Shown piece by piece: positions 3,131 to 23,520 of a DNA stretch of 64,000 nucleotides (position 1 is the first letter of the stretch; each line of letters begins with the position of its first letter). The DNA lies in the NCBI RefSeq assembly GCF_020515625.1, contig NZ_JAIWPJ010000003.1, forward strand, positions 310,001 through 374,000. Direction: 5' to 3'. This DNA comes from Natrinema amylolyticum. Its GTDB lineage: Archaea > Halobacteriota > Halobacteria > Halobacteriales > Natrialbaceae. The notes below the pieces were generated by a model. That model saw nothing but the letters and a program-made list of their open reading frames with translations. It did no database searches and had not been told where the DNA came from. The position numbers were made by a program, and so were the translations under genes.

Positions 3131-3149
3131 TTTTAGGTTAGCCTAAAAA
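3131..3149. promoter_or_regulatory. DtxR-type iron operator 1
   Basis: TTTTAGGTTAGCCTAAAA is a near-perfect palindrome that matches the known DtxR/IdeR consensus core TTAGGTTAGCCTAA. It overlaps the 3' edge of the TATA region, so an iron-loaded repressor bound here would block transcription of the siderophore operon. Haloarchaeal DtxR relatives (Idr1, Idr2, SirR) are the likely regulators; none is encoded in this window. Confidence 0.85.
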
Positions 3150-3167
3150 CCGGCACGTTTTTGTTGG

Positions 3168-3184
3168 TTTAGGTTTGCCTAAAA
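3168..3184. promoter_or_regulatory. DtxR-type iron operator 2
   Basis: TTTAGGTTTGCCTAAAA is a second copy, 37 bases after operator 1 and five bases before an ATG at 3190. The tandem arrangement suggests cooperative or two-step iron repression of the first siderophore operon. Confidence 0.8.
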
Positions 3185-3189
3185 CACGT

Positions 3190-3258
3190 ATGCCGACGGA
3201 CAAATTACCATCGGAACGGATCGGCGAGCGGTCGTCGAAGAGAGGTGAGCGGTCGTGA
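3190..3258 (+). CDS. Leader micro-ORF (22 codons) overlapping the aminotransferase start
   Basis: ATG at 3190 opens a 22-codon frame (MPTDKLPSERIGERSSKRGE...) that ends in TGA at 3256-3258. That stop overlaps the GTG start at 3255 in a GTGA junction. The ATG lies five bases after operator 2, the same spacing seen before other start codons in the locus, so it fits a leaderless transcript start. It could be a translated leader coupling ribosomes into the GTG-started gene. No peptide function is recognised, and it could also be fortuitous. Confidence 0.45.
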   Translation: MPTDKLPSERIGERSSKRGERS

Positions 3259-4628: not shown

Positions 4629-6238
4629 CGGGCCAGCGCAGTGCGGTCGACCGGGATCAGCCCCGTGTCGACGAGACTGACCCGACGCCGCCGGCGACGG
4701 CCGCGACCGCCTTCCTCGGCGGGTCGGACGGCAACGCCACGTACCGGGACGCGATCGAGCGGGCGCGCGACGTCCTCCTCGAGTCGTTCGCGACGCCAGA
4801 CGGGCCGTACGCGGGGACCGACCACGAGACGCTCCGCGAGCGGATCGCCGACCTCCAGGTCGTCCCCGACGACGGGGAATCGATCGAGGCGACCCTCGAG
4901 ACGGTCGCCGACGAAGTGCTCGCGGACTCAGTCCGGGTCCACGACCCCGGCTGTGTCGCCCACCTCCACTGTCCGCCGACGGTCCCGGCGCTGGCCGCGG
5001 AGCTGTTGCTGTCGGGAACGAACCAGTCGATGGACTCGTTCGATCAGGCCCCCGCGGCCTCCGTACTCGAGGAGCGGGTCGTCGACGCGTGCTGTGACCT
5101 GTTCGGCTATCCGACCGGCGCGGACGGCGTCTTCACGGGCGGCGGCACGGAGTCGAACTTCCTCGGCCTCCTACTCGCCCGCGATCGGTACTGCGAGCGG
5201 CAGTTCGACCGCGACGTGCAGACGGAGGGGCTCGGGCCCGACGCGGTGTCCGACCTCCGCGTGCTCTGTTCGGACGCCGCCCACTTCACCGCCGAACAGG
5301 CCGCCCATCACCTCGGGCTCGGCGAGGACGCGGTCATCACGGTCCCGACCGACGACGACCGTCGGATAGACCTCGAGGCGCTGGATTCGACGCTCGAGCG
5401 CCTCGAGGCCGACGGTCGCCACCCGTTCGCGATCGTCGGGACGGCCGGGACGACCGACTTCGGCAGCATCGACCCGCTCGAGGCGCTGGCGGACCGCGCC
5501 GCCGAGCGCGACCTCTGGTTCCACGTCGACGCCGCCTACGGCGGGGCGTGCGCGATCAGCGACCGGCTCCGCCCGAAGCTCGCGGGGATCGATCGCGCCG
5601 ACTCCATCGCCGTCGACTTCCACAAACTGTTCTACCAGCCGATCGGCTGCGGGGCTTTCCTGCTCCGCGACGGCGACCGCTACCGGCACCTCGAGCGCAA
5701 TGCGGCCTACCTCAACCCTGAGCGCGACGACGCCGCCGGGGTGCCGAACCTCGTCTCGAAGTCGACCCGGACCACCCGCCGGTTCGACGCGCTGAAACCG
5801 TTCGTGACGTTCAACGCCCTCGGTCGGACGGGCGTGGCCGACTGCGTCGAGTACGTCTGCGAACTGGCCGACGCGGTCGCCGCCGAGATCCGCGACGAGC
5901 CGGCGCTCGAACTGTGCTGTGACCCCGAACTGAGCGCAGTGGTCTTCCGCTACCGACCGGATCGGCCGGCGGAAACCGATCGAACCGACCGCTCTGACGA
6001 CCGGGGCGATTCTCCCCCTACCGCCACCCTCGACTGCGTGAACCGGTCGATTCGCGACGAGCTGTTGGCCGACGGCGAGGTGATCCTCGCCCGCACCGAG
6101 GTCGACGGCACCGCCGCGCTGAAGCTCACGCTCCTGAACCCACGAACGACGCTTTCGGACCTCCGTGACGCCCTCGAGGCGGTCATCGACCGCGGCGAGG
6201 CGCTCGAAACCAACCGAGAGGTGATCGATTCCGCATGA
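4625..6238 (+). CDS. ddc: L-2,4-diaminobutyrate decarboxylase
   Basis: Group-II PLP decarboxylase (537 residues; RhbB/glutamate-decarboxylase family) expected to convert 2,4-diaminobutyrate to 1,3-diaminopropane. The family's N-terminal region is present (HCPPTVPALAAELLLSGTNQ), as are GGTESNFLGLLLAR, the PLP-contact segment HVDAAYGGACAIS and the Schiff-base Lys in AVDFHKLFYQP. Translation is coupled to both neighbours: the GTG start overlaps the aminotransferase stop, and the TGA overlaps the next ATG. A short Arg/Asp-rich insertion sits near residues 455-475. This is the last gene of the locus with fully host-like CTCGAG codon style (about 14 occurrences in 3 kb together with dat). Confidence 0.9.
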   Translation: MTGQRSAVDRDQPRVDETDPTPPATAATAFLGGSDGNATYRDAIERARDVLLESFATPDGPYAGTDHETLRERIADLQVVPDDGESIEATLETVADEVLADSVRVHDPGCVAHLHCPPTVPALAAELLLSGTNQSMDSFDQAPAASVLEERVVDACCDLFGYPTGADGVFTGGGTESNFLGLLLARDRYCERQFDRDVQTEGLGPDAVSDLRVLCSDAAHFTAEQAAHHLGLGEDAVITVPTDDDRRIDLEALDSTLERLEADGRHPFAIVGTAGTTDFGSIDPLEALADRAAERDLWFHVDAAYGGACAISDRLRPKLAGIDRADSIAVDFHKLFYQPIGCGAFLLRDGDRYRHLERNAAYLNPERDDAAGVPNLVSKSTRTTRRFDALKPFVTFNALGRTGVADCVEYVCELADAVAAEIRDEPALELCCDPELSAVVFRYRPDRPAETDRTDRSDDRGDSPPTATLDCVNRSIRDELLADGEVILARTEVDGTAALKLTLLNPRTTLSDLRDALEAVIDRGEALETNREVIDSA

Positions 6239-8097
6239 CGCCACGACAGACGACATCCACGACCGACGAGCACGGCGTCGACGCGACGCGAGTCGCGCGC
6301 GACGCCACGGTGCACAGCTTCCTGAACTGCTACCTCCGCGAGACCCGCGACTACGAGGTCGTCGACGCCGACGAGGTTCCGGTACCGACCCACGGTCGGG
6401 ACGAGGTGGTTCGGGCACCCCTGCCCGAGCAGGACACGACCGTCTACGCCCCGGTTCGCCACCTGTCGCCGACCGACCGTCACCTGTTCGACCTGCCGGC
6501 GTACTATCGGCAGGGCGACGAGACGCTCGAACTCGACTACGTGACGCTGGCCTCGCTGGTGACGAAGGAACTCTCTACCGCGCGAGACGAGACCGGGAAC
6601 CGCGATGAACTCCTCCTGCGGGTCATCAAGAGCTGTAAGAACGTCGCCCGGTTTGTGGAGGCCCGACGGGACGACACCGACCAACTCTACGGCTTCGACA
6701 CGACCTTCCGGGACGCCGAGCAGTCGCTCGTCTTCGGCCACCTCCTCCACCCGACGCCCAAGAGCCGACAGGGAATCGCGCCCCACGAGTCGCCGACCTA
6801 CGCGCCCGAGATGGAAGGGTCGTTCTCACTCCACTACTTCCGGGCCGACCCCGAGTTGGTCTGGCAGGACTCGACGTTCGACGGCACCGTCAAAATCGAC
6901 ACGGGCGACGTGTCGTCCGCCACCGAGTGGATAAAGCAGTCGCTCCGTGAGGACCCCACCGTCTCCGAGGAGTTCGTCGAGGAGCACGTCGAGAGCGACG
7001 ACGTGCTGATTCCCATCCACCCGTGGCAGGCCGACTACCTCCTCGAGCAGGACCACGTGCAGGAGCATCTGGGTGACGGCCTCGAATCGCTCGGACAGGT
7101 CGGCCGCGAGTTCTACCCGACGACCTCCGTCCGGACGCTGTACGCGCCGGACGCGTCGTTCATGGTCAAGGGGTCGCTGAACGTCAAGATTACCAACTCC
7201 AAGCGGACGAACAAGCGCCCGGAACTCGACCGGGCGGTCGGCATCACCGCACTGCTGGACACCGAACTCGGCGACGAACTCGAATCGAAGTTCCCGAACT
7301 TCGACGTCGTGCGCGACCCCGCCGGCCTCACGCTCGACATCGGTGAGGGCGACGAATCCGGCTTCGAGGTCGTCTTGCGCGAGAACGTCTTCCGGGGCGA
7401 CGAGGGGAAGAACGCTACGCCGGTCGTCGGCCTCTGTCAGGACAAAATCTCGGGTGACGGCTCTCGACTGAGCGAGATAATCGAGACTCTCGCCGAGCGC
7501 GAGGACCGAAGCACTGAGGCCGTCAGCAGGGACTGGTTCCGCCAGTACCTCGAAATCTCGCTCCGGCCGTTCATGTGGCTGTTCCTCGAACGCGGACTGG
7601 GCGTCGAGGCCCACCAGCAGAACAGCGTCGTCACGCTGGAGGAGGGCTACCCCGACGAGTTCTACTACCGGGACAATCAGGGCTTCTACCTCCCCGAGGC
7701 GAAGTACGAAGAACACGACGAGCGCGTGCCGGGGCTGGGCGACCGGGGCGAGAACATCGTCGCTGACTGGATTTCCGACGAGCGGTTGCGCTACTACGTC
7801 GTGCTGAACAACATGTTCGGCGTCATCAACGCCTTCGGGACGGCGGACCTCGTGGACGAGCGCGACCTGCTCGAACTCCTGCGCGAGGAGCTAGAGTACT
7901 GCCGCAAGTTCGACGCCGAGTGGTCGTCGCTCCTCGACGGCCTGCTCGAAGAGGAGGCCCTTCCCTGCAAGGCGAACCTCCTCACTCGGTTCCACGACAT
8001 GGACGAACTGGTCGGGGAACTGGAGAACCAGTCGGTCTACGCCGACGTGAACAACCCCATCGTCACGGAGGTCGAACCGGAGGTGGCCCAGCGATGA
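6235..8097 (+). CDS. IucA/IucC-family NIS siderophore synthetase 1
   Basis: 620-residue NRPS-independent siderophore synthetase that adenylates a citrate carboxylate and forms an amide with a hydroxamate amine (RhbC/RhbF, IucA/IucC family). Typical segments are seen: HPTPKSRQG near residue 175, IPIHPWQADYLL near 258, SVRTLYAP followed by KGSLNVKITNSKRTNKRPEL (lysine-rich nucleotide-binding part) near 300-325, and the C-terminal EAHQQNSVVTLEEG with KANLLTRFHD. ATGA overlaps occur at both ends. Codon style shifts within or just before this gene from CTCGAG-rich to CTCGAA-rich, suggesting an origin different from dat/ddc. Confidence 0.9.
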   Translation: MTPRQTTSTTDEHGVDATRVARDATVHSFLNCYLRETRDYEVVDADEVPVPTHGRDEVVRAPLPEQDTTVYAPVRHLSPTDRHLFDLPAYYRQGDETLELDYVTLASLVTKELSTARDETGNRDELLLRVIKSCKNVARFVEARRDDTDQLYGFDTTFRDAEQSLVFGHLLHPTPKSRQGIAPHESPTYAPEMEGSFSLHYFRADPELVWQDSTFDGTVKIDTGDVSSATEWIKQSLREDPTVSEEFVEEHVESDDVLIPIHPWQADYLLEQDHVQEHLGDGLESLGQVGREFYPTTSVRTLYAPDASFMVKGSLNVKITNSKRTNKRPELDRAVGITALLDTELGDELESKFPNFDVVRDPAGLTLDIGEGDESGFEVVLRENVFRGDEGKNATPVVGLCQDKISGDGSRLSEIIETLAEREDRSTEAVSRDWFRQYLEISLRPFMWLFLERGLGVEAHQQNSVVTLEEGYPDEFYYRDNQGFYLPEAKYEEHDERVPGLGDRGENIVADWISDERLRYYVVLNNMFGVINAFGTADLVDERDLLELLREELEYCRKFDAEWSSLLDGLLEEEALPCKANLLTRFHDMDELVGELENQSVYADVNNPIVTEVEPEVAQR

Positions 8098-8681
8098 GAG
8101 GCCCCGGTGGAATCATCGCCGAACCCTACGACTTCCAGACCTACGACGACGAGAGAGACAAGACGGTATCGTTCCGGCCGGTCGAGATGTCGGACCTCGG
8201 GATGCTTCATTCGTGGCTCAACGAGGAGCACGTTCTGCCCGACTGGTCGCTGAACGACCCGCTCCCCGAGTTCCAGAACACCCTCGAAGCAAAACTGGCC
8301 GACGACCACATGACGCCGTACGTCGGCCACCTCGACCACGTGCCGATGAGCTACTTCGAGGCCTACTGGGCCATCGATGACGTGATAGCCGACCACTACG
8401 ACGCCGACCCAGCCGACCAAGGCTTCCACATGCTTCTCGGCCCGCCGGAGTATCTGGGCCACGGCTACGCCGAGTCGCTCATGCGGGCGATGCTCCAGAT
8501 GCAGTTCCGCCACCCCGAAACCGACCGCGTAGTGGGTGAACCCGACGTACACAACGAGAAAGTCCACAGCATCCTGAAAAAGATCGGCTTCGAGCCCCGC
8601 CGCGAGATAGAGATGGAGAACAAGACGGCCCTGCTACTGGTCTGTGAGCGCGAGCGATTCGAGCGGGAGGTGCTAGGATGA
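8094..8681 (+). CDS. Siderophore N-acyltransferase (IucB/RhbD-like GNAT)
   Basis: 195-residue acetyltransferase of the siderophore-biosynthesis GNAT family, expected to acetylate N-hydroxy-1,3-diaminopropane from acetyl-CoA to make the hydroxamate. The central SWLNEEHVLPDWSLN and the CoA-site region (GPPEYLGHGYAESLM, then EPDVHNEKVHSILKKIGFE) match IucB/RhbD. The ATG at 8094 overlaps the synthetase stop (ATGA) and gives the normal family length; upstream in-frame starts lie inside the previous gene. The 3' end overlaps the monooxygenase start by ATGA at 8678. Confidence 0.87.
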   Translation: MRGPGGIIAEPYDFQTYDDERDKTVSFRPVEMSDLGMLHSWLNEEHVLPDWSLNDPLPEFQNTLEAKLADDHMTPYVGHLDHVPMSYFEAYWAIDDVIADHYDADPADQGFHMLLGPPEYLGHGYAESLMRAMLQMQFRHPETDRVVGEPDVHNEKVHSILKKIGFEPRREIEMENKTALLLVCERERFEREVLG

Positions 8682-10087
8682 TCGAAATTCACGACGTCTT
8701 CGGGGTCGGTCTCGGTCCGTTCAACCTCGGTCTGGCAGCGCTCCTCGACGGCGCGAACCGCGACGAGGACGCGGACGTAGACGCCGTGTTCCTCGAGCAG
8801 GACGAGGCGTTCGCGTGGCACGAGGGTATGCTCATCGAGGGGACCACGCTCGAAGTCCCCTTCCTCGCGGACCTGGTGACGATGGCGGACCCGACCAACC
8901 CCCACAGCTACCTCAACTATGTCCGGGAGCGCGACCGCATCTACGAGTTTTACTTCTACGAGACATTCCAGATTCCCCGCCGAGAGTACGACGACTACCT
9001 CCGGTGGGTCGCCGAGCGACTCGACTCCTGTCGGTTCAGTCGCAGAGTCGAGCGCGTCGAGTGGATCGAGGGAGACGACGCCGAGGCCGACGCGGACGGA
9101 GACGGCTACTACGTCGTCACCGCTCGCAACCTCGAAACCGACGAGAAGTTGACCTACCGCGCCCGAAACCTCGCGCTCGGCGTCGGGAGCCAACCCCACG
9201 TCCCCGAGAACCTCCGCGGCCACCCCGACGAGGACGTGTTTCACACCGCGGGCTACCGGTCCCGGCGCGAGCGGTGTCTGGCCGCCGACTCCATCACGGT
9301 CGTCGGGTCGGGCCAGAGCGCGGCCGAAGTCTTCCAAGACCTGCTCGCCCACCAACCGGAGGGCGACTACCGGCTCGACTGGCTCACGCGCTCCGACGGG
9401 TTCTTCCCGATGGAGTACTCGAAACTCGGACTCCAGCACTTCACCCCCGAGTACGACCAGTACGTCTACGACCTGCCCCAAGAGGTCAAAGATGACCTGA
9501 TTCCGAATCAGGACCTGCTCTACAGGGGCGTGGACCCCGAGACGAGTGCGGAAATCTACGATCTTCTCTACCGGCGCTCCATCGGCGACCGAGATCCCGA
9601 CGTGGGCCTGTTCGCCATGACCGAAGTTCGGGACATCGAACCGGTGGGCGACGCCTACGCCCTCGACTGCCACCAGTGGCAGGCCGAAGAGTCATTCGTC
9701 CACGAGAGCGAGATCGTGATTCTCGGGACCGGCTACCAGCGCCCGACTCCCGACTTCCTCGACCCCATCGAGGGAGCAATCAACTGGGACGAGCAGGGTC
9801 GGTTCGGCGTGACCGAGGATCACCGTCTCGACATCGACGTGGCGGGCGACGTGTTCCTCCAGAACGCCGAACTCCACACCCACGGGGTCGGCGTCCCCGA
9901 CCTCGGACTGGGGTGTTACCGCAACACCAAGTTCGTCAACCGACTGGTCGGCCGCGAGGTCTACCCCGAGGACGACGACACGGTGTATCTGGACTTCTCG
10001 GTCGAGGAGTTCGTCGAGCGCAGACCCGATTCCCGCCGCACCGAGCGCGAGACCGAATCGGCTCCGACGCCGACGCAGGACGACTGA
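8678..10087 (+). CDS. Diamine N-monooxygenase (IucD/RhbE-like flavoprotein)
   Basis: 469-residue class-B flavin monooxygenase of the lysine/ornithine N-hydroxylase family, here expected to N-hydroxylate 1,3-diaminopropane using FAD, NADPH and O2. Visible are the N-terminal FAD site GVGLGPFNLGLAAL, the substrate/FAD loop LVTMADPTNPHSYLNYV, the NADPH site VVGSGQSAAEVFQDLL and the GTGYQRPTPDFL motif. It is last in the five-gene set dat-ddc-synthetase-acyltransferase-monooxygenase; all junctions are 4-base overlaps, so the set is one translational unit. Family length is normal. Confidence 0.92.
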   Translation: MIEIHDVFGVGLGPFNLGLAALLDGANRDEDADVDAVFLEQDEAFAWHEGMLIEGTTLEVPFLADLVTMADPTNPHSYLNYVRERDRIYEFYFYETFQIPRREYDDYLRWVAERLDSCRFSRRVERVEWIEGDDAEADADGDGYYVVTARNLETDEKLTYRARNLALGVGSQPHVPENLRGHPDEDVFHTAGYRSRRERCLAADSITVVGSGQSAAEVFQDLLAHQPEGDYRLDWLTRSDGFFPMEYSKLGLQHFTPEYDQYVYDLPQEVKDDLIPNQDLLYRGVDPETSAEIYDLLYRRSIGDRDPDVGLFAMTEVRDIEPVGDAYALDCHQWQAEESFVHESEIVILGTGYQRPTPDFLDPIEGAINWDEQGRFGVTEDHRLDIDVAGDVFLQNAELHTHGVGVPDLGLGCYRNTKFVNRLVGREVYPEDDDTVYLDFSVEEFVERRPDSRRTERETESAPTPTQDD

Positions 10088-10226
10088 CTGCACGGCGGGT
10101 TCGTCGTCCCGTCGACTCTCAACGCCCCGACAATTCGCCATCTCTCGTCCTTCCGGTTCGTCCATGTTACGGCGTAGATCATCGAAGTGATTTTCTTCGG
10201 AAGTTAATTTCGGAACTATTATAAAG

Positions 10227-10243
10227 TTTTAGGCGGGCCTAAA
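10227..10243. promoter_or_regulatory. DtxR-type iron operator 3, with TATA box
   Basis: TTTTAGGCGGGCCTAAA lies five bases before the ATG at 10249. A TATA-like TTATAAAG is at 10219-10226. The arrangement predicts a leaderless, iron-repressed transcript for the binding protein and the first glutamine-synthetase-like gene. Confidence 0.8.
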
Positions 10244-10248
10244 CAAGT

Positions 10249-11457
10249 ATGGAGGAAGAAGAGACGGCGTACGATGCACCGACGCGACGAAAGTGGCTGA
10301 AGTACAGCGGTGCGGTCGTCGGCGGCGGCCTGCTCGCGGGATGTACCGGTGATCCGGAGTCAGAGAGCCAGACGACCACGGCTAGCGAGGAAGGCTCCTA
10401 CTCGGCGACGCTCGCGCCGACAGGCGAGGTGACGCTCGACTCGGAGCCCGAAGACATCTTCACGATGCTGGGCCACCACGCCGATATGGTGCTGTCGGTC
10501 GGTCGGAGCGACGACATGAATGCGGTGTTCGAGCCGGGCTACCACCAAGGGCTGTACCGGAAGTTGACACACCATCTCGACGGGGTTTCGGTCGATTGGG
10601 AGGGGCTGTACTCCTCGTGGCAGCCGGAGAAGGAGAAAGTGTACGAACTCGACAGCGACGTTCACATCGCCGACCCAGCGAAAGTTGCGACCGCAGACGG
10701 ATGGGACAAAAGCGACGTTCAAGATATAGCTGATAACGTCGGCCCGTGGTTCGGAAACACGCTCAGTGGCACCAATCGGACGCCGCCGGAGGGCTGGAGA
10801 GACCAGTACGAGTACTACACGCTGTGGGAGATCTTCGGCAGAGTCGCACAGTTGTTCGGAGAGGACGAACGGTACGAGGCGCTCGCGTCCGTCCACGAGT
10901 CGATGGTGCAGTCCATCGAGGAGAACCGCCCGCCGGAGAGCGAGCGGCCGACCGCGGCGCTGGTGTTGTTCTCGACGTCGGACGACACGGGATGGGGCTA
11001 CAAGATGAACAATCCGGGCTACTACGCCGCACATACGCGTCCGATGGGTGTCACCGACACGCTGTCCGAGACCTTCGGGGAGGGATACGGCGATGGCGGG
11101 CGAAACATGCCGTTCGACTACGAACTACTCCTCGAGGCGGACCCGGACGTATTTCTCGTTCTCGGTTCGATGACGGAGTATTTCAATCTCGACGAGATTC
11201 GGAAGGGTCTGGAGGACCACGAGGTCGCCAGCGAACTCACTGCCGTCGAGGAGGGCAACGTCTACGCCCAAGGCGCCCGGCGACAGGGGCCGCTTCTCAA
11301 CCTGTTCCAACTGGAGATGACCGCCAAACAGCTCTACCCCGAGCAGTTCGGCGAGTGGCCCGGCTACGAGAACGGGGAGCCGTATCCCGAGATTCCAGAG
11401 GAGGAACAGCTGTTCGATCGGGACCGCGTCGCGGAGATCATCAGCGAGGGGGCGTAG
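10249..11457 (+). CDS. Iron-siderophore ABC transporter substrate-binding lipoprotein
   Basis: 402-residue binding protein of the FepB/FecB type. The N terminus has a twin-arginine, lipobox signal (TRRKWLKYSG...LLAGC; Cys near residue 28), so it should be Tat-exported and lipid-anchored outside the membrane to capture Fe(III)-siderophore. The later periplasmic-binding-protein pattern is present (FTMLGHHADMVLSVG early; LLEADPDVFLVLG late). It is followed after ten bases by a glutamine-synthetase-like gene. No intact permease or ATPase for it exists in the window; only a truncated ATPase remains at 19.9-20.2 kb. Confidence 0.87.
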   Translation: MEEEETAYDAPTRRKWLKYSGAVVGGGLLAGCTGDPESESQTTTASEEGSYSATLAPTGEVTLDSEPEDIFTMLGHHADMVLSVGRSDDMNAVFEPGYHQGLYRKLTHHLDGVSVDWEGLYSSWQPEKEKVYELDSDVHIADPAKVATADGWDKSDVQDIADNVGPWFGNTLSGTNRTPPEGWRDQYEYYTLWEIFGRVAQLFGEDERYEALASVHESMVQSIEENRPPESERPTAALVLFSTSDDTGWGYKMNNPGYYAAHTRPMGVTDTLSETFGEGYGDGGRNMPFDYELLLEADPDVFLVLGSMTEYFNLDEIRKGLEDHEVASELTAVEEGNVYAQGARRQGPLLNLFQLEMTAKQLYPEQFGEWPGYENGEPYPEIPEEEQLFDRDRVAEIISEGA

Positions 11458-11467
11458 GAGCGTAACG

Positions 11468-12814
11468 ATGGAGGTTCAGACGATAGCGGAGCGCTGTGAG
11501 CAGGCCGACGTGAAACTCGTCCGACTGCTGTACGTCGGTAACGACGGCGTGATTCACGGGCACTCGGTCAAGCGGTCCCATCTGGAGGACGGGCTCGAAT
11601 CCGGCGTCCCGTTGCCGAAACTGGTCCAGTCGTTCAACGCGCTCGGCCAGCGCATCAAGGATGCCAACTTCGACGCCGTGGGCGAGGTCCGACTGGTTCC
11701 GGACCGTTCGACGTTCCGCGTCCTCGACCACGAAGAGAACGTCGCCGCGGTGTGCTGTTCGCTGCGCGAGATGGACAGCGACACGCCGTGGTCGGCCGGT
11801 CCGCGCTCGGCGCTGGAACGACTCGTCTCGGCGTTCGAGGACGACGACGTGGTGCCGTCGCTCGCACTCGAAAGCGAGTTCCACGTCTACTCGTCGGCGG
11901 ACGGTGGACAACCCGATGGCGACCGCGGCCTCTACACGACCGACAGCATGCGCAACTCCCACGACGTCGTCCTCGACGCCATCGACGCGCTCGAATCGCA
12001 GGGAATCGACGTGAAGAAACACGTCGCGGAGTACTCCCCCGGACAAAACGAAATCGTCACTGGTCACCGCGAGGGAGTCGGTGCGGTAGACGACTACGTC
12101 TTCCTCCGCGAGACGATTGCGGGCGTTGCCGACTCTCACGACCTCCAGACGACGTTCCTGCCCCACCCCTTCGAAGCGACGACGAACGGCTGTCACATCC
12201 ACCTGTCGCTGTGGGACGAGACGACCGACACGAACCGATTCGCACCGACCAACGCGGACGAACCCCTGAGCCGAACGGGGCGGCACTTCGTCGGCGGGAT
12301 TCTCGACCACATCCCGGCCCTGCTCGCGCTCACCTCGCCGACGGTGAACTCGTACGTCCGCCTTCAACCGCAAGCCGGAGCGGCGGCCTACAGCTGTTGG
12401 GGGGTCGGCAACCGAGAGGCCGCGGTTCGGGTGCCCCAGGTCCCGTCGGACGAACGCGACATGGCGACGCGTATCGAGTTCCGCCCCGCGGACAACACGG
12501 CGAACCCGTACCTGTCGGTGTTAGGCCTGTTGGCCGCGGGTCGAGACGGTATCCGGAACGAGACCGATCCGGGAGAGCCACTGGACGCGGACCCGGGGAA
12601 CTGCGACGACGAACTGCTAAAGAAACGGGGAATCCAGCGATTGCCGACGACGCTCGGCGAGGCACTTGACGCACTCGCCGACGACGACGTTCTCAGGGCG
12701 GCGATGGGAGAACACCTGTTCGAGTCGTATCTGGCCGTCAAACGAAGCGAGTGGGAGGAGTTCACGTCCAGTGCGGCGACGTGGGAACGTGACACGCTCC
12801 GCCAGACGTTCTGA
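11468..12814 (+). CDS. Glutamine-synthetase-like amide ligase 1
   Basis: 448-residue glutamine-synthetase-fold enzyme of the non-housekeeping (GlnA-III, gamma-glutamyl-amine synthetase) type. The beta-grasp start (KLVRLLYVGNDGVIHGH) is followed by metal ligands ESEF (about residue 136), NGCHIHLS (about 240), the Arg-rich NREAAVRVP and [15 protein letters not shown] (about 335). Such enzymes use ATP to join glutamate, or a similar carboxylate, to an amine. Here it is co-transcribed with a siderophore-binding protein under an iron operator, so 1,3-diaminopropane or a siderophore amine is a reasonable substrate. That is inference; bulk glutamine synthesis is unlikely from the context. Confidence 0.8.
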   Translation: MEVQTIAERCEQADVKLVRLLYVGNDGVIHGHSVKRSHLEDGLESGVPLPKLVQSFNALGQRIKDANFDAVGEVRLVPDRSTFRVLDHEENVAAVCCSLREMDSDTPWSAGPRSALERLVSAFEDDDVVPSLALESEFHVYSSADGGQPDGDRGLYTTDSMRNSHDVVLDAIDALESQGIDVKKHVAEYSPGQNEIVTGHREGVGAVDDYVFLRETIAGVADSHDLQTTFLPHPFEATTNGCHIHLSLWDETTDTNRFAPTNADEPLSRTGRHFVGGILDHIPALLALTSPTVNSYVRLQPQAGAAAYSCWGVGNREAAVRVPQVPSDERDMATRIEFRPADNTANPYLSVLGLLAAGRDGIRNETDPGEPLDADPGNCDDELLKKRGIQRLPTTLGEALDALADDDVLRAAMGEHLFESYLAVKRSEWEEFTSSAATWERDTLRQTF

Positions 12815-12884
12815 GCGGCCCACACCGCCACATCGCTCCTGCTGTCAGTGGTAACTGCTACGCCCGGCGGCAATACTACACACT

Positions 12885-12902
12885 TTTTAGGCTGGCCTAA
12901 AA
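12885..12902. promoter_or_regulatory. DtxR-type iron operator 4
   Basis: TTTTAGGCTGGCCTAAAA, eleven bases before the ATG at 12914. It gives the second glutamine-synthetase-like gene its own iron control. Confidence 0.8.
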
Positions 12903-12913
12903 ATTAACTCCCG

Positions 12914-14248
12914 ATGAGCGACATCGAAACGGTCGAATCTCGATGCGAAGAGCAGAACGTCGACCTCGTGAGACTGTTGTACGTCACCCAAAGCGGCGTG
13001 GTTCAGGCGAGTACTATCGACGTCTCCGAAGTCGGCGCGGCCATCGAGAACGGCGTCACTACCTCGGAAGTGCTTCAGGCGTACGACTCGTTCGCCCAGC
13101 GGAACAGACAGAGCAGTTTCGACGCGGTCGGCGAAGTGTATCTCCGCCCGGAACCCGAAACGTTCCAACCACTGCCGTACGCCGAGCGGACCGCCGCGAT
13201 GCTCTGCACCATGGAGACCCCTGATGGCGACCCATGGCCCGTCGATGCCAGAACGAGGCTCCTGTCGTTCGTCGAGGACCTCGAAGCGACGGGCCTCTCG
13301 CCCGAAGTCGCATTCGAGAGCGAGTTTCACCTCTTCGATCCCGACGGCGGGAGTCGCGGAGACGAACCCGGCGCGTACCGTACGGAGTCGATACGCGGGA
13401 CCCACGAGACGATTCTCGACGTCGTCGACGCCCTCAAAGCCCAAGATATCTCTGTCAAGAAGTACCACCCTGAGTACTCCGCCGGAAAGCACGAAATCGT
13501 CTCGAGCCATCGGTCGGCGATTCGAGCGGCCGACGAACACGTCCTCCTGCGTGAGACGGTCAAGAGCGTGGCCCGCAACGACGGACAGCAGGCCACGCTG
13601 CTGCCCAAACCGTTCGATGACGGAACGAACGGCTGTCACATCAACGTCTCGCTCTGGAACGGCGAAAACGAGTTCTACGACCGCGAGCACGGCGGCCTGA
13701 GCCGAACCGCTCGGCAGTTCATCGCGGGTGTCCTCGACCACGCGCCGGCGCTCTCCGCGCTCGTGGCCCCGACGGTGAACTCCTACGGCAGACTGCGGCC
13801 GAGCCACGGTGCCGCGGCGTACGTCTGTTGGGGACACGAGAACCGCGAGGCCCTGATTCGGGTGCCCGCTCCCGAGAAGAACCTCGAAGCGGCCTCGACC
13901 CGAATCGAGTTCCGGGGCGGCGACAACACCGCGAATCCGTACCTCTCGTTGCTCGGCCTTCTCGCCGCCGGCAAGGACGGCATCGACCGCCAACTCGAAC
14001 CGTCCAACCCCGTTCCGGTGGACCCGTGCGACCTCACCGACGAACAGCGTGCGGACCGCGGCATCGAGCGGTTGCCCCGGTCGCTCGGCGAGGCGCTCGA
14101 CACGCTGGAGGAGAACGACACGATGCGGGAGGCACTCGGTTCCGACCTCTTCGACGCGTTCGTGGAGGTCAAACGGACTCACTGGCAGTCTTTCGTCGAA
14201 AGTGCCGGAGAATCGTGGCGGCGCGAACACCTCCGAAACCTGTACTGA
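12914..14248 (+). CDS. Glutamine-synthetase-like amide ligase 2
   Basis: 444-residue paralogue of the preceding ligase, with the same layout: [16 protein letters not shown], metal motif ESEF (about residue 134), NGCHINVS (about 239), NREALIRVP and [15 protein letters not shown]. One visible difference is His-to-Asn in the second position of the H-x-H nucleotide/metal segment (HIN instead of HIH), so the two copies are probably not interchangeable. It has its own iron operator. It may act on a second amine, on the mono-adduct made by ligase 1, or with it as a hetero-oligomer; these are guesses. Confidence 0.78.
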
Positions 14249-14447
14249 CCTCAATTCCTGATATAATTTGTTTAAATACTTATTTTTACTTTGTTATTTA
14301 TTTTTGTAGTTCCTATTTTCATTCCTCTAACGCTTCTCTGTCTCCTTTTTGTTCTGTCTTCGCCCGTCCCGGAGCGACCCGAAAACCGCGTCTCGTACTA
14401 CCTCGGAGCGAGGAGAAAAGTAGTGACTGCCGAGACTCCTCGACGGC
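14249..14447. other. A/T-rich spacer between convergent genes
   Basis: This 199-base gap holds a stretch (about 14262-14350) that is very A/T-rich for this genome, with several T runs (ATTTTTA, TTATTTTTG, CCTTTTTGT). It lies between the stop codons of convergent genes, so bidirectional T-rich transcription termination is the simplest reading. No gene is seen. Confidence 0.5.
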
Positions 14448-15878
14448 TCAGTCGTCGCTCGCAACCTCTGCCAGCTCGTCGCTCGAGCTATCGATAGTTT
14501 CGAGGGCGCTCTCGCGCCACGGACCGAACCGGAACCACGCGAACGCCAGCGTCGCCCCGAGTACGTTCGAGGCGGCGATGGCGACCCAGATTCCCTCCGG
14601 ACCGATTTCCTGCGCACCGAACCACGCCATCGGTAGCCGGATGACCCCGCGCATCGTCAGCACGATGACGGCCGCCACGATCGTCTTTCCGACGCCGCGG
14701 AACCCACCGACGAACGTCCGAGCGACGCCCATACACCCGAACGTCGGGACCACCCAGTGCAGGAACGTGACGCTGTGTTCGACGGTCGGCTGGTGGTCCG
14801 TGAACAGCCGCACGAGCGGTTCCGCGCCGAGCCACGTGGCCGCAGCGAGTACCGAGAGGCTTCCGAACGCGATGGCCGCTGCGCGGTAGTTGAGGCTCAC
14901 CGCGCGGTCGAGTTTCTCAGCTCCGATGTTCTGTCCGGTCATCGTCTCGACGGCCTTCGAGATGCCGACCGTTGCGAAACCGACCGTCGAGATGATACGG
15001 ATGCCGATACCGTATCCGGCGACGGCCGCCGTCGAGAAGGTACCGACCATGACGAGGAGCAGGTTGATGGCGATGCCCCGGCCCGTCTGTTCGAAGGAGG
15101 TCGGAACGCCGGTCCGGACGAGTCGCCGCGCCCACGAGAGGTCCGGTCGGAACTGGTGCGGTTCGATTCCGAGTCCGCGTTTGGAACCGAACAGCAGTGT
15201 GAACCCGACGAGGATTGCGAGCGTCCGGGCGGTCACCGTCGCAATCGCGGCACCGCGGATACCCATCTCCGGCACGAACCCCCAGCCGAAGATGAGGACG
15301 GGGTCGAGCGTAGCGTTGAGCGCGAGCGACCCCAGCATAATCGGCACCGGCGTCACCGTGTCTCCCGACCCGCGCATCAGCGAGACGAAAGCGACGAATC
15401 CGATGGTCGCCGGGAGGCCGAGTGAGAGCAGTTGGAGGTACTGGGTGGCGAGTCGGTGGACGGTCGGCGTGATGTTGTACAGCGCGAGGACGTCGTCTAC
15501 GAGGAAGAACCCGAGACCCCCGACGACGACCCCTGCCATCAGCCCGTACGTTATCGTCTGTGCCGCCGCGTGGGCCGCTCGACGGGGGTTCTCACCGCCG
15601 GTTTCCTGCGCGACGTGGATGCTCCCGGCGACGGGAAGCCCGTAGCTCACCGCCAAAAGGAGGTACGCGAGCGGATATGCGAGGGTGATGGCCGCCAGCG
15701 ACGGGTTGCCGTACTGGCCGAGCCAGAACGTATCGATGAGGGTGTAGACCGTCTGTATGGCGTTCGTGAGGATGACCGGGAGCGCGAGTATGCAGAGCGG
15801 CCGCACGATGGACCCCGAGGTCAGGTCGAGGTCGTCCTGTTTGTCGAACAGGTCCACGAACGCCTTTTGAATGCCCAT
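14448..15878 (-). CDS. MATE-family efflux transporter
   Basis: 476-residue integral membrane protein with about twelve hydrophobic helices in two MATE repeats. The N-terminal part reads SIVRPLCILALPVILTNAIQ, followed by a YTLIDTFWLGQYG segment typical of NorM/DinF-type cation-coupled exporters. It starts 15 bases after the deacetylase-family gene, in the same transcription direction, so the two form an operon behind operator 5. MATE proteins export cationic or amphipathic small molecules; in this locus, export of the siderophore or of a modified derivative is the natural proposal. Confidence 0.88.
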   Translation of the reverse strand: MGIQKAFVDLFDKQDDLDLTSGSIVRPLCILALPVILTNAIQTVYTLIDTFWLGQYGNPSLAAITLAYPLAYLLLAVSYGLPVAGSIHVAQETGGENPRRAAHAAAQTITYGLMAGVVVGGLGFFLVDDVLALYNITPTVHRLATQYLQLLSLGLPATIGFVAFVSLMRGSGDTVTPVPIMLGSLALNATLDPVLIFGWGFVPEMGIRGAAIATVTARTLAILVGFTLLFGSKRGLGIEPHQFRPDLSWARRLVRTGVPTSFEQTGRGIAINLLLVMVGTFSTAAVAGYGIGIRIISTVGFATVGISKAVETMTGQNIGAEKLDRAVSLNYRAAAIAFGSLSVLAAATWLGAEPLVRLFTDHQPTVEHSVTFLHWVVPTFGCMGVARTFVGGFRGVGKTIVAAVIVLTMRGVIRLPMAWFGAQEIGPEGIWVAIAASNVLGATLAFAWFRFGPWRESALETIDSSSDELAEVASDD

Positions 15879-15893
15879 GAGCTGTCCCTCCTG

Positions 15894-16736
15894 TCAGTCC
15901 TCTCGCTGCCGCCAGTGACGGGCGATCTCGGCACAAGTTGCGACCCACGCGCCGTCCGTGCTGGTGACGTGGTCGAGCAGTCGGTCGAGCGCGTCGATAC
16001 GACTGGCGCGACCGATAACCTGCGGATGCAACGTCAACATGAACAGCCGACCGCGGCGGTGCAGTCCATCGAACTCCGCCTTCCACGTGTCGAAGACGGG
16101 GGAGACAGGCGAGAGTCCCGACTGGAAGTCGAAGGCCGGTCGCATATTGAATCCCCAGTAGACGAAGTCGTCGAGCAGGAAGTGGTTCGGGAGTTCCACG
16201 AAGTCTACATCGTCTCGCGCGTAGGGGATGTCGGTATCCATCATCGAGGAGTCGTATATCATGGCGTTCTCCTCGGCCATCTCCAGCGTCTGGCCGGACT
16301 GTCCGCCCCGGTAGCCCAGCGGTTTCTCGCCGGTGAGATCCTCGATGACGTCGACCGTCCGTTCGAACTCCGTTTCCTCACGTTCGGCCGACATGTATCG
16401 CGGATGAACGTGGGAGTAGGTGTGGTGGGCTATCTCGTGACCGCGCTCGTGAATCTCTCGAACGGTCTCGGGCCACTCCTCGGCGACTCGTCCAGGGACG
16501 AAGAACGTCGACCGACAGTCGTGTTTTTCGAACACTTCCAGAATGCGCGGGACGCCGACCTCGGGACCGTAGGCACCTCGGAACGCGAACTTCTCGAACC
16601 CCTCTTGGCGCTTGCCGGCGGCGCGCCAGAGCTGCTCGGCGTCGAGGTCGAACGTGAATGCCGCCGCCGACTGGTGGTCGCCCCACGGATTGTCGTCGGT
16701 CGATAGCTGTGCGTCTTCGAAGTCGCTCTCTGCCAT
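15894..16736 (-). CDS. Polysaccharide-deacetylase-family (CE4-like) hydrolase
   Basis: 280-residue NodB/CE4-fold protein, closer in style to the cytosolic PgdA/allantoinase-like branch. There is no signal peptide, motif 1 is FTFDLDAE, motif 2 is HTYSH (both metal His present), motif 3 is LGYRGGQSG, and the late His is in MLTLHPQ. All usual metal and catalytic positions appear intact. It is first in a two-gene operon with the MATE exporter, seven bases downstream of operator 5. The substrate is probably a small N-acyl compound rather than a cell-wall polymer; de-acylation of a siderophore intermediate is one possibility, not shown. Confidence 0.8.
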   Translation of the reverse strand: MAESDFEDAQLSTDDNPWGDHQSAAAFTFDLDAEQLWRAAGKRQEGFEKFAFRGAYGPEVGVPRILEVFEKHDCRSTFFVPGRVAEEWPETVREIHERGHEIAHHTYSHVHPRYMSAEREETEFERTVDVIEDLTGEKPLGYRGGQSGQTLEMAEENAMIYDSSMMDTDIPYARDDVDFVELPNHFLLDDFVYWGFNMRPAFDFQSGLSPVSPVFDTWKAEFDGLHRRGRLFMLTLHPQVIGRASRIDALDRLLDHVTSTDGAWVATCAEIARHWRQRED

Positions 16737-16742
16737 TGCTGG

Positions 16743-16760
16743 TTTTAGGCTAGCCTAAAA
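16743..16760. promoter_or_regulatory. DtxR-type iron operator 5
   Basis: TTTTAGGCTAGCCTAAAA is a perfect 18-base palindrome. It is six bases upstream of the ATG (16736, minus strand) of the deacetylase-family gene and governs the deacetylase-MATE operon. Confidence 0.85.
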
Positions 16761-16838
16761 AATAAAACTTTGGAATTTTACACCAAAGGTAAAGGTGGAC
16801 GATACAAATGACGGAACGCCCGCCTCGTTCCGGACGCG

Positions 16839-17510
16839 TTACTCGTCGTCGAGGTCGGCGATGTGGTCGTTCGCCCCGGAGATGTCCGCGAGCGATTCGC
16901 CTTCGTAGAGGCGGTCGATGACCTCCTGTTCCGCGTCGGAGTGGCCCGTGTAGTGTTCGAGGAGGTGTTCGATTTCGTCCTGCGGGACGAACACGACGCC
17001 GTCCTCGTTCCCGATTGCGACGTCGCCCGGTCGAACGACGGCACCGCCCACCTGCACGGGGACGTTGATGTCCCCACCTAAACTCTCGTCGAGGCGCTGG
17101 ACCGTTCTGGTCGTCTTCGTCCGGGCGTACACCGGGAAGTCGATTTCCCGGATGGCCGCCGTGTCGGTCACTGCGCCGCCGATGACCACGCCGCGAGCGC
17201 CGTTTGCAACCGCCGCGTGGGTAGTGACTTCGCCCCAGGGCGCGTTCGTCTCGTGGCCGTCCATCTCGATGACGATAACGTCTGTCGGTCCGGCGAGTTC
17301 CGTCGCCTTGTGGACCATCGTCCCGTCTACGGGCGGAATCCGAACGGTCAGCGCCGAACCGACCACGTTCGCCGAACTCGCCGTCTCCATGAACTGGAGT
17401 TCGGGTGCCGTGTGTCCGAAGTGCCTGTGATGGCCGAGTTCGTTTGGGTCTACTCGTTCGAGTTCCGAGAGTTTCTCCTCGCTCGGGCGGTCGAACGTCT
17501 CGATCACCAT
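16839..17510 (-). CDS. RraA-like / HMG-aldolase-fold protein
   Basis: 223-residue protein of the RraA/4-hydroxy-4-methyl-2-oxoglutarate aldolase family. The fold signature GVVIGGAVTDTAAI and the later GDVAIGNEDGVVFVP are clear. In aldolase members the loop normally reads GxxRD; here it is GAVTD, so the substrate-binding Arg is replaced by Thr while the Asp is kept. Activity on pyruvate-derived or citrate-like acids may be altered or lost. The start overlaps the end of a 33-codon upstream frame. Its place among iron-regulated genes suggests turnover of a carboxylate building block, but this is inference. Confidence 0.75.
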   Translation of the reverse strand: MVIETFDRPSEEKLSELERVDPNELGHHRHFGHTAPELQFMETASSANVVGSALTVRIPPVDGTMVHKATELAGPTDVIVIEMDGHETNAPWGEVTTHAAVANGARGVVIGGAVTDTAAIREIDFPVYARTKTTRTVQRLDESLGGDINVPVQVGGAVVRPGDVAIGNEDGVVFVPQDEIEHLLEHYTGHSDAEQEVIDRLYEGESLADISGANDHIADLDDE

Positions 17511-17646: not shown

Positions 17647-17664
17647 ATTTAGGCGCTCCTAAAA
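17647..17664. promoter_or_regulatory. DtxR-type iron operator 6
   Basis: ATTTAGGCGCTCCTAAAA keeps both half-sites (TTAGG/CCTAA). It lies in the divergent region between the RraA-like gene (minus) and synthetase 2 (plus), nearest the former. Confidence 0.7.
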
Positions 17665-17718
17665 GTTGGGCAGTGGTCGCACGACTCAACGCTGACACCG
17701 AACGGAAGCTTTTTACGA

Positions 17719-17737
17719 TTTTTAGGCCACCCTAGAA
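17719..17737. promoter_or_regulatory. Degenerate DtxR-type operator 7
   Basis: TTTTTAGGCCACCCTAGAA is an imperfect copy (the right half has CCTAGAA). It is 72 bases from operator 6 and 121 from operator 8, in an A/T-rich divergent promoter region. It may be a weaker auxiliary site. Confidence 0.5.
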
Positions 17738-17839: not shown

Positions 17840-17857
17840 TTTTAGGCCAGCCTAAAA
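17840..17857. promoter_or_regulatory. DtxR-type iron operator 8
   Basis: TTTTAGGCCAGCCTAAAA, five bases before an ATG at 17863, preceded by an A/T-rich stretch (ATTTTTATTC, 17830-17839). It controls the second synthetase and its leader frames. Confidence 0.83.
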
Positions 17858-17910: not shown

Positions 17911-18005
17911 CTGACTGGCCCGTACCTCACGACGCCCTCTTCGGCCAGCCAGTACGCCAGACGACCGACAGCGCGAACGCGACCACGACAGAGGTCGAAG
18001 TATGA
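17907..18005 (+). CDS. Micro-ORF B (32 codons) coupled to synthetase 2
   Basis: ATG at 17907 opens a 32-codon frame (MTDWPVPHDALFGQPVRQ...) that overlaps micro-ORF A at its start and the synthetase ATG (18002) at its end, both by ATGA. A chain of three overlapping frames is unlikely to be an accident, so this may be a real small protein of the siderophore operon. It is not recognised as a known family. Confidence 0.45.
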   Translation: MTDWPVPHDALFGQPVRQTTDSANATTTEVEV

Positions 18006-19819
18006 ACGGACGAGAGACGCTGACGACCGCACTCGAGACGGACAGATGGACCGACGTGAGCCACGACCTCCTCGTAAAGATGTTCGAGGAGTTCCTCTAC
18101 GAGGACCTGCTGGACCCCACCGAGACGGGGACCGACGGCGAGTGGATGCAGTATCGGCTCGACTACGGTGACGTGGCCTACCGGTTCGCCGCCCGGTCCC
18201 GACCCTTCGACAGCTACCGGGTCGATGCCGACAGCATCGAGCGCCGGGAGGGCGACGACTGGACCTCCGCGACCGATCCGGTTCAGTACCTCCTCGACGC
18301 CAGAGAAGCCCTCGGCGTGGCTCCCGAGACGGCGAGCCACCTCATCAGGGAGTACAACAACACGCTGGTCGCGGACGCCCACATCGACGCTCGGAAGGAG
18401 AACACCACCGAGAGCGTCCTCGACATGGACTACGCGGCCGTCGAGGGCGAGATGGAGGGCCACCCGTGGTTCACCATCAACAAGGGGCGCATCGGCTTCG
18501 GCTACGACGACTACCGGTCGTACGCCCCGGAACTCAAAGAACCGCAGTCGCTAGTCTGGATCGCCGCACACCGCGAGCGCGCCGACTTCCGGAGCGTCGA
18601 AGGGCTGGACTACGAGTCGCTGATGGACCAGCAGTTGGGCGACGCCGTGGCGTCGTTCGAGGACACCCTCCGGACCGAGGGCCACGACCCCGACGACTAC
18701 TACTTCCTGCCGGTCCACCAGTGGCAGTGGGACAACACCGTCGCCCAACTGTTCGCCAAGGACATCGCCAACGACGACATCGTTCCGCTCGGGACCGGCC
18801 CGAACACCTACCTCCCCCAGCAGTCGATTCGGACGTTCACGAACGTAGACGACCCCGAGAAACCCCACGTTAAGGTCCCCATCCGGGTGCTGAACACCAT
18901 CGTCTACCGCGGCCTGCCGGACGAGCAGGCGCTCGCCGCGCCCCGCGTCACCGAGTACGTCAAGTCGATTCGGGACGACGACCCCTACTTACGAGACGAC
19001 TGCGACCTCGTGTTGCCCGGCGAGATTGCGAGTCTCAACTATGACCACCCCGAGTTCTCGCAACTGGACGACGCGCCCTACCAGTACCACGAACTCCTCG
19101 GGTCGGTGTGGCGCGAGAGCGTCGCGGCCCTCGTGGACGACGACGAGCAGGTCCTGACACTCTCGGCGCTCATGCACCGGGACACCGACGGGACGCCCAT
19201 CGTCTCAAAACTCGCCGACCGGGCCGGGTCGTCCATCGACCAGTGGCTGGCCGACTGCTTCGACGTCCTGCTCCCGCCGCTGCTCCACTACCTTTATCGC
19301 TACGGGATGGTGTTCATGCCCCACGGGACGAACACGATGCTCGTCCTGCAGGACGGTCAGCCGACCCGGCTCGCCATCAAGGACTACGTAGACGAAATTG
19401 CGGTCAGCGAGGAGTGGCTCCCGGAACTCGACCGACTCCCCGACGGCCTGTACGAACACGACGACATCATCCACCAGCGGCCGCCCGAGGGACTGTGCCA
19501 GCACATCGTCGGCACGCTGTTCGTCTGCGTGCTCCGGTACGTCGCCGACCTGTTGAACCGGGAGGAGGGCTACGATGAGGAGCGTCTCTGGCGGCAGGTC
19601 CGGGCCAGCATCGAGCGCTACCAGTCGCAGGTCCCGGAACTAGAAGAGCGGTTCGAGTTGTTCGACCTGTTCAAGCCGGAGTTCGACAAGGTGTGTCTGA
19701 ACCGCAACCGGATGGTTGAGTACGGCTACGACATCGACCACGAACCGCCCGAGGTCAACGCCCACGGCACAGTCTCGAACGCGCTGGCGGACCTCGAACC
19801 CGCGGAGCGCGACGACTGA
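18002..19819 (+). CDS. IucA/IucC-family NIS siderophore synthetase 2
   Basis: 605-residue paralogue of synthetase 1, expected to add the second hydroxamate arm to the citrate mono-amide. Family segments visible are HPWFTINKGRIGFGYDDY (about residue 155), LPVHQWQWDNTV (about 236), PQQSIRTFTN with HVKVPIRVLNTIVYRGLP (about 275-310), FMPHGTNTMLVL (about 438) and the C-terminal LFKPEFDKVCLNRNRM. It is preceded by two overlapping micro-ORFs and operator 8. Codon style is CTCGAA-rich like the preceding foreign-looking genes. The remains of a third family member lie 430 bases downstream. Confidence 0.9.
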   Translation: MNGRETLTTALETDRWTDVSHDLLVKMFEEFLYEDLLDPTETGTDGEWMQYRLDYGDVAYRFAARSRPFDSYRVDADSIERREGDDWTSATDPVQYLLDAREALGVAPETASHLIREYNNTLVADAHIDARKENTTESVLDMDYAAVEGEMEGHPWFTINKGRIGFGYDDYRSYAPELKEPQSLVWIAAHRERADFRSVEGLDYESLMDQQLGDAVASFEDTLRTEGHDPDDYYFLPVHQWQWDNTVAQLFAKDIANDDIVPLGTGPNTYLPQQSIRTFTNVDDPEKPHVKVPIRVLNTIVYRGLPDEQALAAPRVTEYVKSIRDDDPYLRDDCDLVLPGEIASLNYDHPEFSQLDDAPYQYHELLGSVWRESVAALVDDDEQVLTLSALMHRDTDGTPIVSKLADRAGSSIDQWLADCFDVLLPPLLHYLYRYGMVFMPHGTNTMLVLQDGQPTRLAIKDYVDEIAVSEEWLPELDRLPDGLYEHDDIIHQRPPEGLCQHIVGTLFVCVLRYVADLLNREEGYDEERLWRQVRASIERYQSQVPELEERFELFDLFKPEFDKVCLNRNRMVEYGYDIDHEPPEVNAHGTVSNALADLEPAERDD

Positions 19820-23314: not shown

Positions 23315-23520
23315 GATTAGCAGTAGATTTGAGCTACCCACCGCTAAAGCGGTGGGATTCAGCGTGGACTCCCGTTCTGGCCGCAGTTAAGGCAGGAGAA
23401 TAGCCTCCGTTCACGTTTAACATCCCGCTGTTCAAGCGCACACCCAAGGGTGCGCCTCCGTCGCCCCCAGTTTGGTTGCGACGGAGATACCGCAACCCAA
23501 TGTTCTTCGCAGCGTTGTAG
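23315..23520 (-). ncRNA. Predicted omega/sotRNA guide RNA of the TnpB element
   Basis: By analogy with haloarchaeal IS1341-type genes, whose 3' ends give sense-overlapping transcripts, an RNA from the last part of tnpB should end in the hairpin at 23337-23356. It would carry host sequence beyond it (minus strand, below 23334) as its guide. Boundaries are estimates; only the hairpin and gene context are seen. Confidence 0.4.

Follow-up and report, generated by a model that had tools for sequence, protein, structure and literature searches.

A pair of glutamine synthetase-like ligases in an iron-box-controlled siderophore locus of Natrinema amylolyticum may serve a variant siderophore assembly route in haloarchaea

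Introduction

Haloferax volcanii carries a six-gene iuc cluster (HVO_B0041-B0046: dat, bdb and iucABDC) that is strongly induced without iron and whose predicted product is schizokinen (PMC7407949). No glutamine synthetase (GS)-like, CE4, RraA or MATE gene has been described for that cluster. Here we analyse a locus of the non-ribosomal peptide synthetase (NRPS)-independent siderophore (NIS) type from Natrinema amylolyticum, which has the same six core functions and, interleaved with them, two GS-like ligases (GS1 and GS2), a MATE exporter, a CE4-type hydrolase and an RraA-like protein. It lies in a stretch of 64,000 nucleotides (assembly GCF_020515625.1, contig NZ_JAIWPJ010000003.1, positions 310,001 to 374,000), hereafter called the window. 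An earlier annotation made from the letters alone, here the sequence-only reading, had placed the five additional genes in a schizokinen-type pathway.

Bacterial NIS pathways offer a further comparison. Those for staphyloferrin B (sbn) and achromobactin resemble the window locus in having several NIS synthetases, a diamine made by decarboxylation and a five-carbon dicarboxylate unit, and sbn includes the aldolase-family protein SbnG. In both, the five-carbon unit is 2-oxoglutarate joined by an NIS synthetase, and neither pathway is known to use a GS-fold ligase.

The ligases themselves have relatives in amine metabolism. E. coli PuuA and Streptomyces GlnA2/GlnA3 are catabolic gamma-glutamylpolyamine synthetases that share with GS1 and GS2 the GS fold, the activation of glutamate and an amine acceptor (PMC8998196); they form a separate clade in a context of amine oxidation, whereas GS1 and GS2 stand in a siderophore context. 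In Haloferax mediterranei, GlnA-2 (HFX_1688) has glutamate-putrescine ligase activity but no GS activity; its product is gamma-glutamylputrescine, and it shows no response to the nitrogen source. It lacks D50 and E327, has Ala for Y179, and is encoded between MATE and ABC-transporter genes near glnA-3 (PMC8394153). It was described for putrescine use with no link to siderophores, and the iuc genes are elsewhere in that genome (PMC8394153). The sequence-only reading knew of no NIS operon with this gene set, and we likewise found no NIS pathway containing these genes in the literature searched, which did not cover the archaeal DtxR regulon and TroR papers; an earlier mention of a siderophore-linked GS in an iron regulon could therefore still be found there.

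We propose that the locus encodes a variant NIS siderophore pathway under iron repression, in which a gamma-glutamyl amine made by GS is used by a dedicated IucC (IucC'), a reading that we consider evenly poised. We regard it as almost certain that the module is part of siderophore metabolism.

Results

The locus and its iron boxes

All five additional genes called in the sequence-only reading are present, flanked by dat, bdb, iucA, iucB, iucD and a substrate-binding protein (SBP) gene (3255-11457) on one side and by iucC on the other. Every schizokinen-type core function is encoded in the window: dat, bdb, two IucA/IucC synthetases, a GNAT acyltransferase and an N-monooxygenase. The features, in window coordinates, are as follows.

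3132-3183: two iron boxes before dat (starts 3132 and 3168), TTTAGGTTAGCCTAAA and TTTAGGTTTGCCTAAA
3255-4628, plus strand: dat, diaminobutyrate-2-oxoglutarate transaminase (NF005393 717 bits, cut-off 671)
4625-6238, plus strand: bdb, diaminobutyrate (DABA) decarboxylase-like (PF00282; NF052646 420 bits, under the equivalog cut-off of 900)
6235-8097, plus strand: iucA-type NIS synthetase (PF04183 and PF06276)
8100-8681, plus strand: iucB-type GNAT acyltransferase (PF13523, 1.7e-48); start not fixed, the listed open reading frame being 7920-8681 and the domain beginning at about 8187
8678-10087, plus strand: iucD-type amine N-monooxygenase (PF13434, 8e-109)
10228-10243: iron box of the SBP-GS1 unit, with perfect palindrome arms
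10249-11457, plus strand: ferri-siderophore-type SBP (PF01497)
11468-12814, plus strand: GS1, gamma-glutamyl-amine ligase-like, GS1 subclade of the siderophore-linked GS clade (NF045547 693 bits, cut-off 650)
12886-12901: iron box of GS2
12914-14248, plus strand: GS2, gamma-glutamyl-amine ligase-like, GS2 subclade (NF045547 681 bits, cut-off 650)
14448-15878, minus strand: MATE exporter (PF01554; TIGR00797 239 bits, cut-off 147)
15894-16736, minus strand: CE4 (NodB-type) amide hydrolase of the PuuE/HpPgdA-like branch (PF01522)
16744-16759: iron box of the CE4-MATE unit
16839-17510, minus strand: RraA-like protein (PF03737), catalytic Arg replaced by Thr
17648-17736: two iron boxes before RraA (starts 17648 and 17721)
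17841-17856: iron box before iucC
18002-19819, plus strand: iucC', NIS synthetase of the GS/CE4-linked IucC clade (PF04183 and PF06276; tree SH-aLRT 100)

By homology, the bdb product would make 1,3-diaminopropane. MATE is likely co-transcribed with CE4. A TnpB/IS605 OrfB-type protein with a Cas12f1-like TNB domain is encoded close to the downstream flank of the locus (23334-24587, minus strand).

The iron box is the palindrome TTTAGGCNNNCCTAAA, of which the locus holds eight copies between 3132 and 17856, one with a single mismatch. When the window was scanned for it with up to 3 mismatches, counting both strands, 17 strand-wise hits were obtained against 2.08 expected by chance, a number that none of 100 shuffles reached. 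Sixteen of the 17 hits are the eight locus palindromes, and the rest of the window has nothing comparable. In the whole 4.7-Mb genome, 32 sites were found at up to 1 mismatch, compared to 4 for a reversed-pattern control. Every transcription unit of the locus (dat, SBP-GS1, GS2, CE4-MATE, RraA and iucC) has a box, and those of SBP, GS2 and CE4 lie about 6-28 bases ahead of the start codon, where a leaderless haloarchaeal transcript has its core promoter. The claim that the ligase, MATE, CE4 and RraA genes share operators with the biosynthetic genes thus appears to hold. The protein that binds the boxes is predicted to be a DtxR-family repressor, on general grounds and on those of the DtxR/SirR/TroR studies that PMC11349517 cites.

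In sister Natrinema species the corresponding site, next to radA, is occupied by a plain six-gene cluster. Compared with these, Dat and Bdb of the window are 80-92% identical, and IucA to IucC only 51-64%. The iucA-to-iucC block with all five additional genes is instead 79-91% identical to that of genome G261. These identities indicate that the variant block supplanted the native one through recombination close to the boundary between bdb and iucA.

GS1 and GS2 resemble gamma-glutamyl-amine ligases

Both proteins exceed the curated cut-off of NF045547, the NCBIfam profile for gamma-glutamylputrescine synthetase, and score far under the cut-offs of the glutamine synthetase profiles. They keep the residues of the glutamate, metal and ATP sites (E129, E131, E212, E220, H269, R321, R339, E357 and R359) and are without D50, E327 and Y179, the ammonia-site residues being lost (P/S at 50, G at 327). 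The sequence-only reading had asked whether the ligases might only make glutamine; the profile scores and the loss of D50 and E327 argue against canonical glutamine synthetases and point to a pair of the gamma-glutamyl-amine type. The genome has two further GS genes, which reach only 351 and 342 bits with NF045547, so ammonia assimilation is presumably independent of GS1 and GS2.

Siderophore-linked GS proteins form one iron-box-associated clade

We surveyed 293 genomes of the order, calling GS family members at E < 1e-130. A GS-like gene of the family was found in 32 of the 293 and IucA/IucC in 88. In a maximum-likelihood tree of 62 GS proteins, all siderophore-linked GS found, GS1 and GS2 included, fall into one clade of 30 (UFBoot 100 / SH-aLRT 99), which splits into GS1 and GS2 subclades, with 26 other haloarchaeal family members outside. 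All clade members keep the catalytic glutamates as well as His269, Arg321, Arg339 and Arg359, and Asp50, Glu327 and Tyr179 are replaced. Compared with the other haloarchaeal and bacterial group, position 327 is Gly rather than Trp, 179 mostly Ala rather than Cys, and 359 Arg rather than Lys. Iron boxes stand at operon level ahead of 28 of the 30 clade members, in three cases via the SBP-GS1 unit, compared to 0 of the 26 outside.

IucA/IucC was present in all 20 sampled genomes that carry the clade, against the base rate of 88/293 (hypergeometric P 7e-12, with kinship ignored), and in 18 of the 20 a clade GS lies within about 13 kb of it. No IucA/IucC homologue was found near any of 45 bacterial GS loci. 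GS2-type loci, including those of Halorussus, Haloarcula, Halostella, Halegenticoccus and Halocatena, have a recurring core in which iucC and GS2 stand divergently behind iron boxes. Among the mapped loci, which were picked partly for holding GS or iuc so that architecture counts are not frequencies, GS is the commonest partner of iuc, and CE4 with MATE, and RraA, recur in subsets. Only the window and G261 (L086) were found to have all five genes beside iuc. The expected co-occurrence with IucA/IucC in haloarchaea is therefore borne out far beyond chance for GS, while the five genes prove modular and not an invariant set.

The modules vary in several ways. CE4-MATE pairs accompany iuc without GS in three genomes (G103, G172 and G239), MATE recurs in iuc loci L066, L101, L103, L211, L212 and L228, and the exporter type differs between loci (MATE, MFS or ABC exporter). 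RraA proteins of the window's subfamily (at least 74% identity) occur in seven genomes, always adjoining GS and in six adjoining iuc. In Haloferax mucosum an SBP joins the set as its sixth member (L076/L107), lying between GS1 and GS2 in L107.

Some further loci deserve mention. Actinarchaeum and YIM A00013 (L092, L122) have a GNAT-GS1 operon that is separate from iuc and headed by an iron box, and a divergently oriented amidase-family gene adjoins it. In Haloarcula pellucida, a short open reading frame resembling a dat remnant follows GS2-MFS (L110:12563-12910). HpcH/HpaI aldolase-family proteins are encoded near GS1-type ligases in three iron-box loci (L079:2214-3029, L080:6181-6990 and L117:12306-13127), two of which have iuc; SbnG, a siderophore citrate synthase, is a member of this family, and sequence comparison of these HpcH/HpaI proteins does not single out SbnG. 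The box-less GS group (L073, L075, L077, L078, L082, L083, L085 and L087) has, by eye, M20 peptidase, amidohydrolase, AstE-like or MBL-fold genes as neighbours and may perhaps serve gamma-glutamyl amide turnover.

GS co-segregates with its own IucC

The IucC tree has two clades at support 100: a GS/CE4-linked clade of 25 rows and a classic clade of 46 rows (43 without GS) with the schizokinen-type six-gene clusters. The window IucC belongs to the former (SH-aLRT 100), and so to another clade than the IucC proteins of ordinary six-gene clusters. When Halorussus-type loci with GS (L064, L068) were compared with those without (L101, L226, L228), Dat was 90% identical, IucA 85-88% and IucD 76-80%, and IucC only 55-59%, whereas IucC proteins among the GS-containing loci are 87% alike. 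This suggests that GS and its own IucC move as one unit that alters the last condensation. Because clusters with and without GS share Dat, IucA and IucD but not IucC, the GS product probably enters siderophore assembly, and therefore the final product is probably not plain schizokinen; the schizokinen-type label of the sequence-only reading is probably wrong in this respect.

Four loci have IucC' with no GS in the genome, and all four carry an additional IucA-type NIS synthetase (a small sample from two lineages), as if one ligase could replace the other. The N. amylolyticum genome has a third IucA/IucC-family gene outside the locus (G000:C2:442897-443652, L210), which shares 41% identity with the additional NIS synthetase found in Haloarcula and has no iron boxes within 20 kb.

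CE4, RraA and MATE

CE4 has a NodB domain with an intact Asp-His-His metal triad (TFDLD and HTYSH motifs). Structures 3rxz, 3qbu and PuuE 3cl6 are among its top structural hits, and it scores below the PuuE allantoinase equivalog cut-off (TIGR03212 123 bits vs 424.6). One guess is that it opens citrate-imide or acyl-amide forms. The RraA-like protein has VTD where 3noj has VRD, and Thr replaces the catalytic Arg of the GxVRD motif in all 14 aligned subfamily rows. Because the aldolase Arg is replaced in the whole subfamily, a classical HMG/CHA aldolase activity is unlikely, and the recycling step that the sequence-only reading gave to RraA finds no support as an aldolase reaction. An SbnG-like role is weakened by the same change. 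Export of the product by MATE, whose TIGR00797 score is over the family cut-off, and maturation by the hydrolase are plausible, and roles for all three proteins would follow from their families and context.

Published data from Haloferax mediterranei

The order glnA-3/SBP/glnA-2/MATE in H. mediterranei (GlnA-3 being HFX_1686) is the GS1/SBP/GS2/MATE order of H. mucosum (L107), and GlnA-2 shares with GS2 the loss of D50 and E327 and the change of Y179 to Ala. From this we infer that GS2 is the orthologue of GlnA-2. In RNA-seq of H. mediterranei denitrification, glnA2, glnA3 and the intervening SBP had log2 fold changes of -4.05, -5.37 and -4.25, the iuc genes -6.0 to -7.1, and a SirR-type DtxR regulator was up (PMC11218638). 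The authors described the part that glnA2/glnA3 play here as unclear (PMC11218638); membership of one iron regulon would account for their fall together with iuc. The absence of GlnA-2 protein only in complex medium would also fit an iron response.

Discussion

We suggest the following route. Siderophore-dedicated GS2, with its paralogue GS1, would activate glutamate by converting its gamma-carboxylate to a phosphate, and would join it to an amine of the pathway: 1,3-diaminopropane, a hydroxylated or acylated derivative, or diaminobutyrate. The type-C synthetase IucC' would take this gamma-glutamyl amine in place of the second acetyl-hydroxamate arm and so complete the citrate amide, with IucA, IucB and IucD providing the remaining arm, a hydroxamate like that of schizokinen. 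MATE might export the product, CE4 might open or trim an amide or imide, and the SBP may take part in re-uptake.

Gene content limits the chemistry. Seven genomes with GS and IucC' have no lysine/ornithine-type N-monooxygenase, and three of them (G125, G131 and G177) also have no DABA decarboxylase. Neither diaminopropane nor a hydroxylamine can thus be the general GS acceptor, which removes the 1,3-diaminopropane of the sequence-only reading as a general substrate and GS as a general former of gamma-glutamyl hydroxamates; diaminobutyrate, or an amine common to all the genomes, remains. Haloarchaeal NIS loci behind iron boxes without IucB/IucD (L069, L071, L072, L066, L084, L088 and L089) probably make hydroxamate-free siderophores. 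For Haloarcula salina and Hca. amylolytica, in which the monooxygenase is missing, the predicted product is a hydroxamate-free carboxylate siderophore. The likeliest product of the window, where all hydroxamate genes are present, would be citrate with one acetyl-hydroxamate arm and one gamma-glutamyl-amine arm. More generally, a GS-fold ligase would supply a building block, either a gamma-glutamyl diamine or gamma-glutamyl-diaminobutyrate, for a dedicated type-C NIS synthetase to add to a citrate siderophore. This would give mixed siderophores where hydroxamate enzymes are present and, in the seven genomes without them, a hydroxamate-free family unknown in Archaea. We hold this general scheme tentatively, with slightly less than even confidence; whether the GS product becomes part of the siderophore at all is a balanced call.

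The GS pair could instead serve homeostasis, gamma-glutamylating surplus diaminopropane, diaminobutyrate or polyamines of the de-repressed pathway for protection or catabolism, with MATE expelling the conjugates and plain schizokinen as the siderophore. The glutamate-putrescine ligase activity of the clade's likely orthologue (PMC8394153) and the polyamine-ligase family of NF045547 would suit this, as would the general knowledge that MATE transporters often pump cationic amines. We nevertheless think it unlikely: no PuuB/PuuC/PuuD-type polyamine catabolic genes are among the genes of the locus, GS is kept in the three genomes without DABA decarboxylase, most schizokinen clusters do without GS (43 of 71 mapped iuc loci, a non-random set), and the co-segregating change in IucC is left unexplained. 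A tailoring role, rated a shade lower still, would have GS add glutamate to a finished or nearly finished siderophore, or form a gamma-glutamyl hydroxamate on an N-hydroxy amine, making the product more water-soluble or self-recognised until CE4 strips the group after uptake. GS enzymes readily form gamma-glutamyl hydroxamates (a textbook assay), the regulon also includes a CE4 from the PuuE-like branch, which hydrolyses amides or imides, and exporter and SBP are co-regulated; against this, the genomes with GS and no N-monooxygenase make hydroxamate formation not general, and CE4 is missing from most loci with GS. That the genes belong to nitrogen or glutamate metabolism and merely hitch-hike on a mobile block is very improbable. 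The iucA-iucC block was indeed gained as a unit with the five genes, but the association spans several families with differing gene orders and iron boxes before GS, and H. mediterranei shows no nitrogen response (PMC8394153). We rejected this explanation on the cross-family co-occurrence and the GS tree.

Several observations weigh against incorporation of a GS-made amine by IucC'. In H. mucosum, RraA-CE4-MATE-GS2-SBP-GS1 stands alone with iron boxes and iuc is on another contig (L107, L215). GS1-type genes can likewise be away from iuc (L092, L122 and L076), and clade GS stands beside a classic-clade IucC in L080/L124 and L090, so the coupling is not absolute. We know of no siderophore from any GS-containing cluster. 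The orthology of glnA2/glnA3 with the siderophore-linked GS is likely, its basis being gene order and the Y179-to-Ala signature, and GlnA-2 is the only orthologue to have been assayed, with putrescine as the amine; the substrates in siderophore context are predicted.

Judged from their boxes, the GS-containing loci appear to be iron-controlled; they are widespread in haloarchaea and probably encode a chemical step not seen before. The analysis assigns a clade of archaeal glutamine synthetase-like enzymes, including H. mediterranei glnA2/glnA3, to iron acquisition, and predicts structurally new archaeal siderophores, hydroxamate-free ones among them. MATE, or the ABC or MFS exporters of other loci, are candidates for the haloarchaeal siderophore exporter. 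With the proposed step, NRPS and NIS synthetases would be joined in siderophore assembly by amide-forming enzymes of a third type, with an acyl-phosphate intermediate and the GS fold.

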